Source: an uncultured Bacteroidales bacterium
Lineage (GTDB): Bacteria > Bacteroidota > Bacteroidia > Bacteroidales > UBA4417
Length of the DNA stretch: 36,936 nucleotides
Direction: 5' to 3'
Assembly (NCBI GenBank): GCA_903878265.1
Contig: CAIRHD010000264.1
Coordinates: 1 to 36,936 of the forward strand
The position numbers were made by a program, and so were the translations under genes. Each line of letters begins with the position of its first letter. Position 1 is the first letter of the stretch. The notes beneath the pieces are model-generated. The model did no database searches, was not told where the DNA came from, and worked only from the letters and a program-made list of their open reading frames with translations. Shown here in pieces: positions 7,079-13,156 of the stretch.

Positions 7079-7568
7079 GTTCAGGTTCATCCTTGAGCAG
7101 ATTTTTTTGAGGAATTCAAGCTCATTGTAATATTAATAGGTAGTGTTCAAAATTTCTTTTTTTTAACCGCAATTAATATTTTTAGGATTTCGACATTCTA
7201 ATTTAGTACTATACTTGCTATCAATTTCTAAAGTGTTATTTTTTCAAAGTGTTTTTTATCAACACGTTACAAATACTAACAGCTGATAAGCAATTTTAAA
7301 ACTATAAAATCCAAGTTCGAAGTATGAAATATTTCAGCAAATGAATTCGTAAATTCGATATTATGTACACTATACCTGCGTACATAGTGTGTACTTTTGC
7401 GAAAAAATAAATAGCAACGGATAAGTTATCTCGTTTAATTTGAAGTGGGCCGCCCGCCTTGACTTTCAGGGTATATTTTTCCAATAAACTATTCAGTTTA
7501 TTGTTTGGAAATTATGCCATTTTGACTGCCGCACAAGTTTGCTATTTTAAAAATACAAAAAACACAAA
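7079..7568. other. Intergenic region before norC: regulatory DNA and leader
   Basis: No gene of convincing length is seen in these 490 bp. The first 240 bp are plain AT-rich DNA. The promoter and dyad occupy 7323-7399. The ~165-nt leader contains a GC-rich patch (GGGCCGCCCGCC at 7447-7458) and a 9-bp hairpin, CAATAAACT (7482-7490) with AGTTTATTG (7495-7503) around a 4-nt loop. This could affect leader folding. Confidence 0.5.
7323..7399 (+). promoter_or_regulatory. Promoter A: palindrome, 25-bp dyad and -7 box before norC
   Basis: The perfect dyad TATGTAC-N11-GTACATA spans 7362-7386, and the -7 box TACTTTTG begins six bases after it (7392-7399). The dyad takes the place where a -33 box would be, suggesting an activator-dependent promoter. 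A 12-bp palindrome TGAAATATTTCA lies at 7325-7336. Both elements recur at nearly the same spacing at 9677-9754. Confidence 0.75.
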
Positions 7569-8006
7569 ATGAGGTTAAATACAAAACGGTTTGTTTCCGG
7601 GGTACTAATTGTCTCTTTTTTTGTGTACTCGATAGTAATTTATACTGTTGGGACACGGATTGATAAGGGTGAAAAATACCTGACTATACAAGCAAAAAGA
7701 GGAAAACTGCTGTTTCAGAAAAAGAACTGTATTGCATGCCACCAACTATATGGGCTTGGGGGATTTATGGGACCCGATCTTACCAATACCATTTCAGCTT
7801 TGGGGAAAGGGCCATTATTCGCAAAAGCATTCCTGATGGCTGGTTCGGAACGGATGCCCAATTATCATCTAACCGAAACAGAAATCGCCGAGCTGATTGC
7901 ATTCCTTACCTATGCCGATAAAACCGGCGTTTCACCTGTAAAGAAATTTGAAATAAACTATGATGGAACTGTTAAATGGAAAGGAAAAGATGAAAAGGGA
8001 AATTAG
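7569..8006 (+). CDS. NorC-like membrane-anchored cytochrome c
   Basis: The 145-residue protein has one N-terminal membrane anchor (residues 9-28). A c-type heme domain follows: CIACH at 54-58, the following GLGGFMGPDLTN that is typical of NorC, and Met96 in SERMPNYH as likely sixth ligand. NorC passes electrons to the catalytic subunit NorB in cNOR-type enzymes at the periplasmic face. The neighbouring gene overlaps by 17 bp and encodes a NorB-like subunit, so the two proteins should form a complex. Length and layout are normal for NorC. Expression is probably under promoter A. Naming it norC is by homology; the reaction of this complex is uncertain because the large subunit is unusual. Confidence 0.82.
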   Translation: MRLNTKRFVSGVLIVSFFVYSIVIYTVGTRIDKGEKYLTIQAKRGKLLFQKKNCIACHQLYGLGGFMGPDLTNTISALGKGPLFAKAFLMAGSERMPNYHLTETEIAELIAFLTYADKTGVSPVKKFEINYDGTVKWKGKDEKGN

Positions 8007-9312
8007 TATTTACTTCATTTTATTTGCGATACTATCTTTGTTAGGAGGTGTAATGTTTGGTATCCTTGGCGCCTTTCAATTTTTAATGCCGGTTTTTTTC
8101 AATTGGATCCCATTTATTAAAAGCCGCCCACTGCACGTTTCGCTGGTAATTGCATGGATATTTTTAAGTTCCGTTGGAGGTATATATTACTATTTACCAA
8201 AGTATTGCAATGTAACTTTGTTTTCGGGCAAATTACAAAAAATCCACTTATGGATTTTTGTGATTACTGGTTTCGGGGTTATCATATCTTATTTAGTCGG
8301 CTATTTTGGCGGTAGGGAATACTGGGAATTCCCACCAATTTTGGCTATTCCTATCATAATTTCCTGGCTACTGTTCGGGATCAATTATTTCAAAACTGTC
8401 TTTACGAAAACCGAGCCCTGGCCAGTTTACCTTTGGATGTGGGGAACCGGGATTTTCTTTTTCCTGTTTACATATTTAGAATCCAATCTGTGGAACTTCC
8501 CGTATTTCAGGGATCATTTGGTGCGCGATATTACGGTGCAGTGGAAATCCAACGGTTCCTTGGTCGGTTCCTGGAATATGCTGATTTATGGGACTGCTAT
8601 TTTTTTGATGGTCCGCATCAGCAACGACGACAGCATTGCAAAAACAAGGCTCGCTTTTATAATGTACTTCCTTGGGTTGACAAACCTCATTTTTAATTGG
8701 GCACATCATATTTATATTGTTCCCAATGCCATTTGGGTGCGGTACATCGCTTATGGGATCAGCATGACCGAACTACTGATTTTAGGCAAAATAATATGGA
8801 ACTGGAAAAGGGATCTCACCAAGGCTTTAAGGGATTTTCATATTCTGGCCATCCGGTTCATTGTGGCTTCAGACGTCTGGATTCTATTAAATTTAACGCT
8901 TTCCATACTTTTATCAATACCAGCCATCAATATTTTTACTCATGGCACACACCTCACTGTTGCTCATGCCATGGGCAGTACAATAGGAATAAACACCATG
9001 ATTTTAATAGGTTCCTGTTTGTTTTTGATACCAGATATTACAAAAACTCAGTTCAACCTCAAACAAAGTTTTTCCATTTCCATAGGATTTTGGATAATGA
9101 ATATTATACTTCTCTTCTTTTGGGTAGCATTAATTTTCGCCGGATACCATAAAGGGTATATGGTTGTTGAAGACAAACTGGTGTTTCAGGTCATGATGGC
9201 TAAAATTCAACCGTATTTGGCTGTAGTTGCTTACACCGGTATCGGTATTTTTGCAGGAATACTGATGATTTTTGCTCCTGTATTAAAATTGATCAAAGAT
9301 TATATCCGGTAA
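7990..9312 (+). CDS. Divergent NorB-like heme-copper oxidoreductase subunit I
   Basis: I choose ATG 7990 (MKREISIYFILF), which overlaps norC by 17 bp; an ATG at 7960 adds ten polar residues. The 440-residue protein is a polytopic membrane protein. By hand alignment to Pseudomonas cNOR: His49 (RPLHVSLVIAW) matches low-spin heme ligand H60, GREYWEFP matches a conserved loop, His239-His240 (NWAHHIYIVP) match FeB ligands H258/H259, and THGTHLTVAHAMG matches the heme b3 region with His326 equal to H347. However, Met328 stands where H349 binds heme b, and no His or Glu occupies the H207/E211 positions (KSNGSLVGSWNML). It may be a distinct NO-reductase-like family with altered sites, or an electron-transfer relative. 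It shares the norC transcript. Confidence 0.75.
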   Translation: MKREISIYFILFAILSLLGGVMFGILGAFQFLMPVFFNWIPFIKSRPLHVSLVIAWIFLSSVGGIYYYLPKYCNVTLFSGKLQKIHLWIFVITGFGVIISYLVGYFGGREYWEFPPILAIPIIISWLLFGINYFKTVFTKTEPWPVYLWMWGTGIFFFLFTYLESNLWNFPYFRDHLVRDITVQWKSNGSLVGSWNMLIYGTAIFLMVRISNDDSIAKTRLAFIMYFLGLTNLIFNWAHHIYIVPNAIWVRYIAYGISMTELLILGKIIWNWKRDLTKALRDFHILAIRFIVASDVWILLNLTLSILLSIPAINIFTHGTHLTVAHAMGSTIGINTMILIGSCLFLIPDITKTQFNLKQSFSISIGFWIMNIILLFFWVALIFAGYHKGYMVVEDKLVFQVMMAKIQPYLAVVAYTGIGIFAGILMIFAPVLKLIKDYIR

Positions 9313-9676: not shown

Positions 9677-9754
9677 TATGAAATAATTCAGGAATACGGT
9701 TCGCATATTGCATGTTTATGTACTGTTCATCTGCGTACATAATGTATATTTTTG
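9677..9754 (+). promoter_or_regulatory. Promoter B: same palindrome, dyad and -7 box as promoter A
   Basis: The dyad TATGTAC-N11-GTACATA is at 9717-9741 and the -7 box TATTTTTG at 9747-9754, six bases after the dyad exactly as in promoter A. The spacer's last bases (CTGC before GTACATA) are also shared. TGAAATAATTCA at 9679-9690 matches 11 of 12 bases of the upstream palindrome in A. The ATG of the ATPase is 22 bp downstream of the -7 box, so the leader is very short. Confidence 0.75.
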
Positions 9755-9775: not shown

Positions 9776-10573
9776 ATGGAAATCAGGAAAATTACAATTA
9801 TTGGAGGCAATGGAAAGGATGGCTCAAAGGAAGCTGTCGAACGCTTTGATCTGAAAATGGGTGATATTGTATCAATTGTCGGCCCAACAGGATGTGGAAA
9901 AACAACTTTGATAAACGATATTGAATTGTTTGCAAACAGGAATACACCATCAGGCCGACAGGTTTTGATCAATGACGAAGCTGTACCGGAGGACTTCTCC
10001 TTTGATCCTTCGAAACATCCAATTGCAATGATATCGCAACACACAAACTTTTTGAGTGATTTGCCCGTTGGCGAGTTTCTTACAATACATGCAACTGTTC
10101 GGGGTGCCGAAAATATAGATAAAATATTGCAGGAAACCCTTGATTTCGCAAATAAACTCACTGGAGAAGCAATCATCAAGGAAACAGCAATGACTGAATT
10201 GTCGGGCGGACAAACCCGCTCGCTCTTGATAGCGGATGCCGTTGTCATCGGCAACTCTCCCATTATTTTGCTCGACGAAATTGAAAATGCGGGAATTGAC
10301 CGAACCAAAGCATTGGAACTACTAAAAGGCTATGAGAAGATTTTTGTATTTGTTACCCATGATCCGTGCATCGCTTTGCTGTCCGATTTCAGGATAGTAT
10401 TGAAAAACGGAGCCATGCAACGACTGATTACTACAGGACAAGAAGAAAAATCAGCAGCTACCGAAATGAAAAAAATGGATGATATAATGTTGAGTTTCCG
10501 TAGTATTATCCGTGCCGGTGACGAAATTTCCGAAGATATCCTTAATGAAAAAATGAGTGTACTAACCTGTTAA
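9776..10573 (+). CDS. Orphan ABC-type ATPase
   Basis: All ABC motifs are present: Walker A GPTGCGKTT (36-44), Q-loop Gln88, signature LSGGQ (142-146), Walker B IILLDE (163-168) and H-loop His195. About 45 extra residues follow the NBD. The protein is soluble and no permease or binding protein is encoded nearby, so transport is not the obvious job. Soluble ABC ATPases such as SufC drive Fe-S assembly. The next three genes, nine to twelve bases apart, encode a GTPase, a cysteine desulfurase and an Fe-S protein, which points to nucleotide-driven metallocofactor assembly. It is first in the operon under promoter B. The ATPase call is firm; its role is inferred. Confidence 0.85.
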   Translation: MEIRKITIIGGNGKDGSKEAVERFDLKMGDIVSIVGPTGCGKTTLINDIELFANRNTPSGRQVLINDEAVPEDFSFDPSKHPIAMISQHTNFLSDLPVGEFLTIHATVRGAENIDKILQETLDFANKLTGEAIIKETAMTELSGGQTRSLLIADAVVIGNSPIILLDEIENAGIDRTKALELLKGYEKIFVFVTHDPCIALLSDFRIVLKNGAMQRLITTGQEEKSAATEMKKMDDIMLSFRSIIRAGDEISEDILNEKMSVLTC

Positions 10574-10582
10574 TAAGACGAA

Positions 10583-11284
10583 ATGAAACTAATAATTTTT
10601 GCCGGACCTCCTACTTGTGGAAAAACTACAGTTATCAGGCAAGTGATCAAACGCATGATTGCCAAGGAACTGAAACCATCCTACCTCAAAATCGACGTAC
10701 TGTTTGCCGATGAGGACGAAACAATTCACAAGGAATTCGGTATCCCAACAAAAAAAATCTATTCAGGCGAATTATGCCCTGATCATTGCAATGTTGTGGT
10801 ATTGGATGAAGCCGTTGAATGGGCTCAAAAATCCGGCTCAGATTTCTTATTTGTCGAAACCGCCGGACTTTGCCTGCGATGTTCGCCCTATGTGGAAAAT
10901 TCACTAGGAATTGTTGTACTCGAAGCTACCAGCGGTATGAACCTGCCACGCAAAATCGGTCCTATGCTAACATTGGCCGACATAAGTGTCATCACCAAAA
11001 TTGACCTTATTTCACAAGCGGAGCGCGAAGTTTTCAGGTATCGGGTTCTTGAGTCTGCCAAAGGCATTAGGGTTGTTGAAAGCAACGCATTGTATGGTAT
11101 CGGAATTGATCCGATTGTAACACAGATCATTAAAAGCCCTGAAGTTGAGTTCCCTATGTTCCTTCGTGGCAATCCGCCAGTTGGCACCTGTACTATTTGT
11201 GTAGGCAAAAAAGAAATCGGATCGAAAAACCATTTTGGCGTACTCCGAACCTTAGAACAGGAAATTTTTTATGTCGGGGAATAG
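10583..11284 (+). CDS. Cysteine-rich P-loop GTPase (HypB/CobW/UreG-like)
   Basis: The 233-residue protein starts with a Walker A, GPPTCGKTT (8-16), directly after the first strand. It has a Walker B-like LFVETAG (89-95) and a TKID (138-141) that serves as the G4 guanine-specificity motif in this SIMIBI-type group. Three cysteine pairs stand out: CPDHC (65-69), CLRC (97-100) and CTIC near 204-207, suggesting metal or Fe-S binding. HypB, UreG and CobW family GTPases deliver metals or gate cofactor insertion into enzymes. It starts nine bases after the ATPase stop and nine bases before the NifS gene, so it is surely cotranscribed. Target enzyme unknown; the NorB-like protein is one candidate by shared regulation only. 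Confidence 0.75.
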   Translation: MKLIIFAGPPTCGKTTVIRQVIKRMIAKELKPSYLKIDVLFADEDETIHKEFGIPTKKIYSGELCPDHCNVVVLDEAVEWAQKSGSDFLFVETAGLCLRCSPYVENSLGIVVLEATSGMNLPRKIGPMLTLADISVITKIDLISQAEREVFRYRVLESAKGIRVVESNALYGIGIDPIVTQIIKSPEVEFPMFLRGNPPVGTCTICVGKKEIGSKNHFGVLRTLEQEIFYVGE

Positions 11285-11293
11285 TTCGATTGG

Positions 11294-12457
11294 ATGAAGA
11301 ACAAGGGAATTTATTTCGACAATGCCGCTACAACACAGCTCGATACCAGAGTTTTGGATGCAATGATTCCGTATTTTATCGAAAATTATGGCAATGCATC
11401 AAGCATGCACGATTTTGGTTCGAAAGCAAAAGTCGCCCTCTTAAATTCGCGGAAAACCATTGCCGATGCAATACTGGCCTTGCCAGAGGAAATTATCTTC
11501 ACTTCATCAGGAACAGAAGCAAATAACCTGGCTTTAAAAGGGGTCGCGCTGGCGAATAGATCGAAAAGGAATCACATAATTGTTTCGTCAATCGAGCACG
11601 ATTGCATACTTAATACAAGCCACTTTCTCGAAGAAGAGGGATTCAGGGTCACCTACCTGCCGGTGGATTCCTCCGGGATTATTGACCCAAAACTTTTAGA
11701 GGATGCAATTAGGCCTGATACTTTACTAGCTTCAGTAATGCATGTGAACAACGAAATTGGAACCATTCAGCCACTGGAAGAGATAGGGGAAATCTGTCAT
11801 CAAAATGGTGTGCTTTTTCATTCGGATGCTTGCCAGTCGTTTGGAAAAATCCCAATCAATGTACTTTCCCAAAACATCGATTTGCTGACATTGAATGCGC
11901 ATAAAATGTATGGGCCAAAAGGTGTGGGTGCACTCTACATACGTAAAGGGACAAAAATCAATACTTTGTTGCATGGAGGTGGACAGGAATCAGGATTAAG
12001 ATCATCAACTGAGAACATTCCTGCCATTGCCGGATTTGCCAAATCCACTGAACTCTGTATAGAAGAAATGGCAACTGAAAGCAAAAGAATACAAGCAATG
12101 CGGGATTATTTGGCAGAATATCTGTTCGAAAACTATGCGGATATATACATAAACGGAAGCCAGGACCAAAGATTATACAACAACCTGAATTTCAGCATTC
12201 ATGGACTTGAAGGCGAAACCATCCGTTTGCTCCTGCTTTTAGACGAGATGGGGATTGCGGTTTCGGCTGGATCTGCATGTTCGTCAAACGATAAATCAAA
12301 TAACACATCTCATGTACTGAAAGCCATTGGATTGAACCAGTTCGAAGCCCGCGGAGCCGTGAGGGTTACTTTCGGCAGGTATAATACGATGGAAGAAGTA
12401 AAAAACTTCACCCAAGCCCTGGGAAGTGTTATAAGTCAATTAAAATCAATCTTCTAA
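11294..12457 (+). CDS. NifS/IscS-type cysteine desulfurase
   Basis: The protein has 387 residues, the normal family length. It begins with YFDNAATTQLD; His102 (SSIEHD) matches the residue that stacks on PLP; Lys204 (NAHKMYGPKG) is the PLP lysine. HGGGQESGLRSST contributes to the PLP site, and Cys329 in SAGSACSS is the persulfide cysteine on the flexible loop of class I (NifS/IscS) enzymes. It converts cysteine to alanine and passes sulfane sulfur to a scaffold or carrier. No iscU or nifU lies beside it; the following Fe-S protein may be the acceptor. Cysteine synthesis genes downstream could supply substrate. Confidence 0.92.
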   Translation: MKNKGIYFDNAATTQLDTRVLDAMIPYFIENYGNASSMHDFGSKAKVALLNSRKTIADAILALPEEIIFTSSGTEANNLALKGVALANRSKRNHIIVSSIEHDCILNTSHFLEEEGFRVTYLPVDSSGIIDPKLLEDAIRPDTLLASVMHVNNEIGTIQPLEEIGEICHQNGVLFHSDACQSFGKIPINVLSQNIDLLTLNAHKMYGPKGVGALYIRKGTKINTLLHGGGQESGLRSSTENIPAIAGFAKSTELCIEEMATESKRIQAMRDYLAEYLFENYADIYINGSQDQRLYNNLNFSIHGLEGETIRLLLLLDEMGIAVSAGSACSSNDKSNNTSHVLKAIGLNQFEARGAVRVTFGRYNTMEEVKNFTQALGSVISQLKSIF

Positions 12458-12469
12458 AAAAATAAAACA

Positions 12470-13156
12470 ATGGAAAGCCTACTTGAAACAACAACAATTG
12501 ACAAGCTGCCAAACCTAAATTGTGGCGGCTGCGGATACAAAACCTGCGTAGAATTTGCCAATGCAGTTGATTTGTCTGAAACTGAATTAAAAAAATGTAC
12601 CCATATTAAAAATGGGAGTGCAGTTGAAACAAACCACCAAAACTGCATGAATTGTGCTACCACAGAAAACTTGGGCACAAAATTAAAATGGCAGGATAGC
12701 CTGAAGCGTGAATTCGATTTTATCCTTGATGTTATAGAAGGCGATCCAGGTCCAAGGGAAACAATACTTCCGTACAACCCCGCATTAGTAAAAGACCTTG
12801 GAGTAAAACCTGGCGATGTAATGATTGGCCGCCCAATGGGTATGTCGTGCGGTTGCCCGATCACACACTGTGGTGTGGTAACCGATGTGGATGCGCGGAA
12901 TGGTGTGATAAAATGGTGCGTTACCGGACCACTAAGGCCACGGAATGAAGGTTTTATCGACATAGGCTATTATGTAGCCCAGGCTTACGACGGCATAATT
13001 AAAGAATCAAAAGTGCCGATTGAATTAGGGCGCAGGTATTGGTTTATGCCTCACCGCTGCATGCTGCAATGGCGACATAGCGGATTGATCAATGCTGTGA
13101 CCAAACAAAAGGATGGCAGTCTGAAAATACGCATCGAAGGCTTATTTATCGGTTAA
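12470..13156 (+). CDS. Cysteine-rich Fe-S binding protein
   Basis: The 228-residue protein opens with Cys18, Cys21, Cys26 and Cys43 in a CGGCGYKTC context, matching the 4Fe-4S domain seen at the N-terminus of RnfB and CODH/ACS gamma proteins. More cysteines follow: CMNC (59-62), CGCPITHC (127-134), Cys150 and Cys197. The domain from about 80 to 228 has a conserved look (GRPMGMSCGCPITHCGVV, then WCVTGPLRPRNEG) but I cannot name it. It starts twelve bases after the desulfurase stop. A role as scaffold, carrier or repair factor for Fe-S or another metal cluster fits the operon; direct electron transfer is the alternative. Confidence 0.75.
   Translation: MESLLETTTIDKLPNLNCGGCGYKTCVEFANAVDLSETELKKCTHIKNGSAVETNHQNCMNCATTENLGTKLKWQDSLKREFDFILDVIEGDPGPRETILPYNPALVKDLGVKPGDVMIGRPMGMSCGCPITHCGVVTDVDARNGVIKWCVTGPLRPRNEGFIDIGYYVAQAYDGIIKESKVPIELGRRYWFMPHRCMLQWRHSGLINAVTKQKDGSLKIRIEGLFIG

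Follow-up and report, generated by a model that had tools for sequence, protein, structure and literature searches.

A NorCB-like gene pair of Bacteroidota with altered non-heme metal and heme b ligand positions: a putative third lineage beside the known NorCB-type nitric oxide reductases

The window, by which we mean the whole 36,936-nt stretch of DNA analysed here, comes from a 5.8-Mb Bacteroidales genome and carries a two-gene operon in which a norC-like gene overlaps a norB-like gene by 17 nt (Table 1). The open reading frame and coordinates of the norB-like gene were confirmed, an alternative in-frame ATG being possible upstream at 7960, and its 440-aa product matches PF00115 above the cut-off, which assigns it the COX1 fold of the heme-copper oxidase superfamily. 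CxxCH and the axial Met (MP) of the NorC-like protein are invariant among its relatives (48/48), and a norC-like gene lies directly upstream of the norB-like gene at 43 of 45 loci, so that the operon contains the heme c subunit that characterizes cNOR. The nearest relatives of the NorB-like protein belong to Bacteroidales MAGs (77-84% identity; dN 0.10-0.16, with synonymous sites saturated); a pseudogene or an assembly error was ruled out by the open frame, the low dN and the identical replacements in 51 relatives.

Table 1 Positions in the window of the NorCB-like genes, of mapped residues of the NorB-like subunit and of the repeated motif
Feature	Position	Strand	Evidence or conservation
NorC-like subunit: N-terminal hydrophobic segment and c-type cytochrome domain	7569..8006	+	Cytochrom_C E 1.5e-8; NorC alignment
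NorB-like subunit, 440 aa	7990..9312	+	Pfam COX1 E 5.6e-32; cNOR fold Z 42-44
His49, heme b ligand position (cNOR H60)	8134..8136	+	50/50 in family
Gly189 at the FeB His207 position	8554..8556	+	51/51 Gly
Gly193, at the FeB Glu211 position or adjacent to it (Gly in CcoN too)	8566..8568	+	51/51 Gly
His239-His240, FeB His pair (cNOR H258/H259)	8704..8709	+	51/51
Glu261, cNOR Glu280 equivalent; candidate replacement metal ligand or proton relay	8770..8772	+	52/52
His326, heme b3 ligand position (cNOR H347)	8965..8967	+	51/51
Met328 at the second heme b ligand position (cNOR H349)	8971..8973	+	51/51 Met
ATGTAC-N11-GTACAT inverted repeat upstream of the norC-like gene, candidate operator	7363..7385	+	
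Second ATGTAC-N11-GTACAT copy, upstream of the ATPase/GTPase/NifS/FeS operon	9718..9740	+	

Relatives were gathered from one scan of GTDB species genomes (45 sequences) and from whole-genome searches (seven), and the resulting 52 family proteins come from Bacteroidota and a few Proteobacteria MAGs. Most carriers are MAGs, a culturable one being Pontibacter vulgaris NBU2972, and since two of the carriers (G001 and G062), whose family-bearing contigs have the same length, are probably one genome, there are about 42 distinct carrier genomes. Among evenly drawn genomes the family was found in 8 of 395 from the window's phylum, the window's own genome included; for the Proteobacteria at large there were, besides the query genome, only two weak matches (E ~1e-21) in a sample of 398 genomes from the phylum to which one Proteobacteria MAG carrier belongs, so that none of the 397 others gave a strong match. 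No viral relatives were found in viral_contigs, and the plasmids searched yielded only canonical NorB and CcoN at no more than ~26% identity. No NCBIfam model accepts the NorB-like protein, the best weak match being ccoN, and our search of the literature, which was incomplete, found no published description of the family, so an earlier description is possible.

Residues were mapped onto the cNOR of Pseudomonas aeruginosa (3o0r_B, sequence from a PDB search), and conservation was counted over 52 aligned family sequences wherever the column was present. The original prediction, made from the letters of the window by hand alignment, held that the FeB His pair, the heme b3 His and His49 are kept, that the His207 and Glu211 positions fall in KSNGSLVGSW with no His or Glu, and that the heme b ligand H349 has become Met; the map agrees with it throughout (H60=H49, H258/H259=H239/H240, H347=H326; H207=G189, E211=gap, E215=N196, E280=E261, H349=M328), and the altered ligands are genuine and do not vary within the family. 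The present analysis adds to that prediction the retained Glu280 equivalent, the significance of the NorC-like partner, the lack of norD and the NO and nos genes around relatives. In a profile-profile comparison with five cNORs (422 columns, 99.8%, E 7e-30) the HH pair, SxxE and AH(A/G)(M/H) motifs are in register, and in alignment with CcoN the TM VI stretches QWWYGHNAVG and QWKSNGSLVG pair without gaps, the CuB His falling on Gly189 as well. The possibility that a His or Glu is hidden at another place on TM VI was rejected, as none is conserved in the family under any alignment shift, and no His stands at the second heme b position.

Members of the heme-copper oxidase superfamily share six conserved His, of which two bind heme b, one heme b3 and three CuB/FeB (PMC3413370). 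Four of the six are kept here, the TM VI His being replaced by Gly and the second heme b His by Met; just two adjacent His remain of the cNOR FeB set (His207, His258, His259 and Glu211), and of the bis-His heme b ligands of cNOR (H60/H349) only the first has a His counterpart. The NorB-like protein has ten His, yet only His 49, 239, 240, 318, 321 and 326 never vary among family members; H318 is also found in cNOR and CcoN, and H321 stands in place of Gln/Asp, five residues ahead of the heme b3 His. The NOR-specific SxxE motif (S277/E280 in cNOR, S258/E261 here), whose Glu is absent in CcoN, is kept in every member, and K186 and N196 are likewise invariant (51/51 each).

An AlphaFold2 model of the NorB-like protein (pLDDT 87.9) is as similar to cNOR as to CcoN (tied at Z 42-44), so structure alone leaves the affiliation undecided. 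In the tree, rooted with CoxA as outgroup, CcoN branches next and the NorB-like family is sister to cNOR + (qNOR + NOD); it forms one clade with support of 100/99, separate from cNOR, and each other group forms one clade with starred support, in line with the distinct heme-copper branch originally proposed. On the evidence of this tree, which decides the affiliation, the family is best placed as a third lineage of the NorCB-type branch, outside cbb3; long branches may be meeting in the tree, so the branching order is less certain than the separateness of the family.

The family resembles cNOR (NorCB) in its two-subunit NorC/NorB layout, its fold (Z ~43), the heme b3 His, the FeB His pair, the Ser277 and Glu280 equivalents and Glu110/Glu113 (E135/E138 in cNOR), but differs in having Gly for His207, no Glu211, Asn at the Glu215 position, Met for heme b His349 and no NorD, with ~22% identity and a clade of its own. 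qNOR and NOD belong to the same superfamily branch, the FeB surroundings of NOD are altered too and qNOR is also independent of NorQD; the NorB-like family, however, lacks their fused N-terminal cytochrome-like domain, keeps a heme c partner, has other residues changed and lies outside the qNOR/NOD group. CcoN (cbb3, C-family) is alike in fold and in the QW...GxxxG stretch of TM VI but has a CuB His, a TM VII Tyr and a heme b His where the family has Gly, Leu and Met, and it is accompanied by CcoO/CcoP. Other heme-copper NO reductases outside cNOR and qNOR, some of them only proposed, are bNOR, eNOR, sNOR, gNOR and nNOR; these are reported to be relatives of B-family oxygen reductases (PMC11388526) and are therefore separate in principle from the NorB-like family, which lies on the C-family/cNOR side of the tree relative to the CoxA outgroup and is set apart from them by their descriptions.

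The insertion of FeB into cNOR requires NorQD, and cNOR made without NorQD is fully hemylated, has no FeB and is inactive, whereas qNOR needs neither protein (PMC9976466). Among the 43 carrier genomes, norD is present in five (G060, G061, G078, G274 and G378), exactly those that also encode a canonical cNOR (Fisher p 1e-6), and NorQ was not seen in the loci around the NorCB-like genes. Judged by the distribution of norD, the family and the machinery for FeB insertion do not go together, a pattern that fits either the lack of FeB or a self-assembling site.

Regulator genes of the Rrf2 or Crp families occur at 24 of the 45 loci (Rrf2 nearby in 14, Crp in 12). In one subclade the neighbouring genes encode ScdA/DUF542-hemerythrin, hemerythrin, DUF1858/DUF2249 and two multi-helix membrane proteins, a set that is convergent to a full nos operon at two loci (L139, L140); at two others (L141, L138) the order Rrf2, nadA, nadB, norC-like, norB-like is found near nosZ, and the nosZ operon is physically linked to the NorCB-like genes in four contexts (G080, G081, G082, G449). 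NosZ is encoded by 29 of 43 carriers and by 14 of 37 non-carrier controls (p 0.013), a modest enrichment in a statistic that ignores phylogeny; within the window's genus the counts are 5/7 carriers against 1/9 non-carriers (p 0.035). NirK above the cut-off is present in seven carriers and true NirS in two, both Proteobacteria MAGs, and in about 30 of the 43 carriers a search that systematically covered qNOR, cNOR and NOD gave no match to any of the three. Beside the window's own operon there is no Rrf2, Crp, nos or ScdA gene, and the same genome encodes a separate qNOR with all canonical ligands (G000:C149, L102), which adjoins an ScdA-type gene and is close to nosZ.

Other genes recur or stand out in these neighbourhoods. 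nadA-nadB (quinolinate synthase and aspartate oxidase) are repeatedly near the NorCB-like genes (L032, L034, L039, L040, L046, L099), at loci that sometimes include Rrf2 or Crp regulators. Two conserved membrane proteins with no family match, one of which has a HAHSHxAFxGW motif, accompany the family in nos-linked loci (L045:8275-9585 and L045:11356-12615). A 533-aa heme-copper subunit in G062 (L107:1862-3463), with WWGLDLIADG on TM VI and an Asp near the CuB His position, adjoins a 181-aa protein and an Rrf2 gene and could belong to one of the newer types of NOR.

The window holds two exact copies of the inverted repeat ATGTAC-N11-GTACAT against 0.10 expected, and no further exact copy of the repeat extended by NNTG was found in the genome; resembling sites precede the norC-like gene at two further loci (L006 and L007). 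The NorCB-like operon and the operon at 9776-13156 probably share a regulator, and the latter may be a metal or Fe-S assembly set under common control with the former. That second operon encodes an ABC-type ATPase, a CobW/HypB-like GTPase, a NifS-like cysteine desulfurase and an FeS-domain (PF04060) protein, and is followed by genes for serine acetyltransferase and cysteine synthase. Both copies of the repeat lie just upstream of Bacteroidota-type -7 elements (TAnnTTTG) ahead of their operons.

Taken together, the pairing of the two genes, the predicted fold, the residues that have changed and those that are invariant, the clade and the gene context, all read from sequence, suggest a third NorCB-type lineage that acts on NO at heme b3 and most likely reduces it to N2O, a reading to which we assign a probability of about 0.5. 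The NorC-like heme c would pass electrons to a heme b with predicted His49/Met328 ligation and thence to heme b3 (His326), where NO would be bound and most likely reduced to N2O. Since Met328 strictly replaces His349, a His/Met heme b is predicted, and such hemes generally have a higher potential than bis-His ones. The non-heme site, which retains His239 and His240 alone of the four cNOR ligands, may hold a metal through the two His and Glu261, as a 2-His-1-Glu site assembled without NorQD, or may hold no metal. In simulations of cNOR, water sits between FeB and Glu280 (PMC3431322); given this arrangement and the loss of His207 and Glu211, the obvious candidate for a third ligand bound directly to the metal is Glu261. 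Hemes and any metal would be bound differently from those of cNOR, and the reaction may differ as well.

NO is suggested as the substrate by ancestry and gene context, and N2O as the product mainly by the nos link and by the lack of another recognized NOR in about 30 of the 43 carriers. We propose tentatively that the family is a working NO reductase or NO-consuming respiratory enzyme without canonical FeB, using either a 2-His-1-Glu metal or a lone heme b3 together with a His/Met heme b, and that it may be the only NOR-like enzyme in many nosZ-carrying, nir-lacking Bacteroidota. For a NO-reducing third lineage we count the fold and homology to cNOR, the sister clade, the NorC-like partner, SxxE, the norD pattern, the regulators, the ScdA, hemerythrin and DUF1858 neighbours, the nosZ link and the roughly 30 carriers in which no qNOR, cNOR or NOD was matched; against it we count that FeB is held to be necessary in known NORs and that cNOR without FeB is inactive (PMC9976466), as well as the sparse surroundings of the window's operon, the qNOR next to nosZ in its genome, the modest size of the nosZ enrichment and the preponderance of MAGs among the carriers. 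Since the replacements are common to all known members and many of these stand beside NO-defence or nosZ genes, the family is probably an unstudied route of NO consumption.

An alternative interpretation, which we consider rather unlikely, is that the FeB site is metal-free and that a mononuclear heme b3 binds or scavenges NO, or oxidizes it with O2, in detoxification or sensing, the cytochrome merely resetting the heme. The loss of two FeB ligand positions, with an invariant Gly for the His, the absence of norD and the NO-defence neighbours are consistent with such a role, and the cavity left by Gly189 and Gly193 could suit a ligand rather than a metal; however, the strict invariance of His239, His240 and Glu261 is hard to explain without a bound metal, and the whole NorC-like electron-input subunit is retained.

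It is very improbable that the protein resembles NO dismutase as an enzyme, or works alongside it, in making or using O2. In one carrier (G465, L095:8027-12181) the family operon is divergent from, and 68 bp apart from, the gene for a 768-aa protein with the NOD signature (SHN and STLQ, that is HH to HN and SALE to STLQ; PMC3413370), and G274 contains a NOD-like fragment, but NOD is present in just one or two of the 43 carriers. The altered positions also differ, being the TM VI His and a heme b His here but the TM VII His and the Glu280 equivalent in NOD; a NOD is a fused qNOR-type protein with Asn for the TM VII His and Gln for the Glu280 equivalent, whereas the 440-aa protein keeps HH and Glu261. 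Its NorC-like heme c input is intact, while NODs seem unable to take external electrons (PMC3413370). As background to the G465 locus, a published survey of the genes around nod identified no clear system for O2 consumption next to it (PMC13386854).

We regard a redox or regulatory protein that only shuttles electrons, without catalysis, as similarly improbable: the heme c, heme b and heme b3 ligands are retained beside a degraded non-heme site, but Glu261, Ser258, Lys186, Asn196 and the two His, all of them around the putative active site, are strictly conserved, which argues against it. About as improbable is a cbb3-like oxygen reductase, to which the weak match of public models to CcoN and the tied structural scores point, but which is contradicted by an incomplete set of three CuB His, by the invariant Leu233 in place of the TM VII Tyr, by the lack of a recurrent adjoining CcoO/CcoP gene, by the placement of the family with NORs in the tree and by the separate cbb3 and/or aa3 genes that most of the carriers examined possess.

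Among the biological sources of N2O, NO reductases are a major one, and the non-heme iron of these enzymes is regarded as indispensable. A conserved lineage with the NorCB layout, and often with NO-related or nosZ genes around it, in which FeB ligands have been dropped and a heme b ligand swapped offers a natural experiment on the requirements of the binuclear centre. Since no NCBIfam model accepts the family, surveys may label many of its carriers 'Nos only' though they may handle NO, and the scoring of N2O-reducing Bacteroidota would change.
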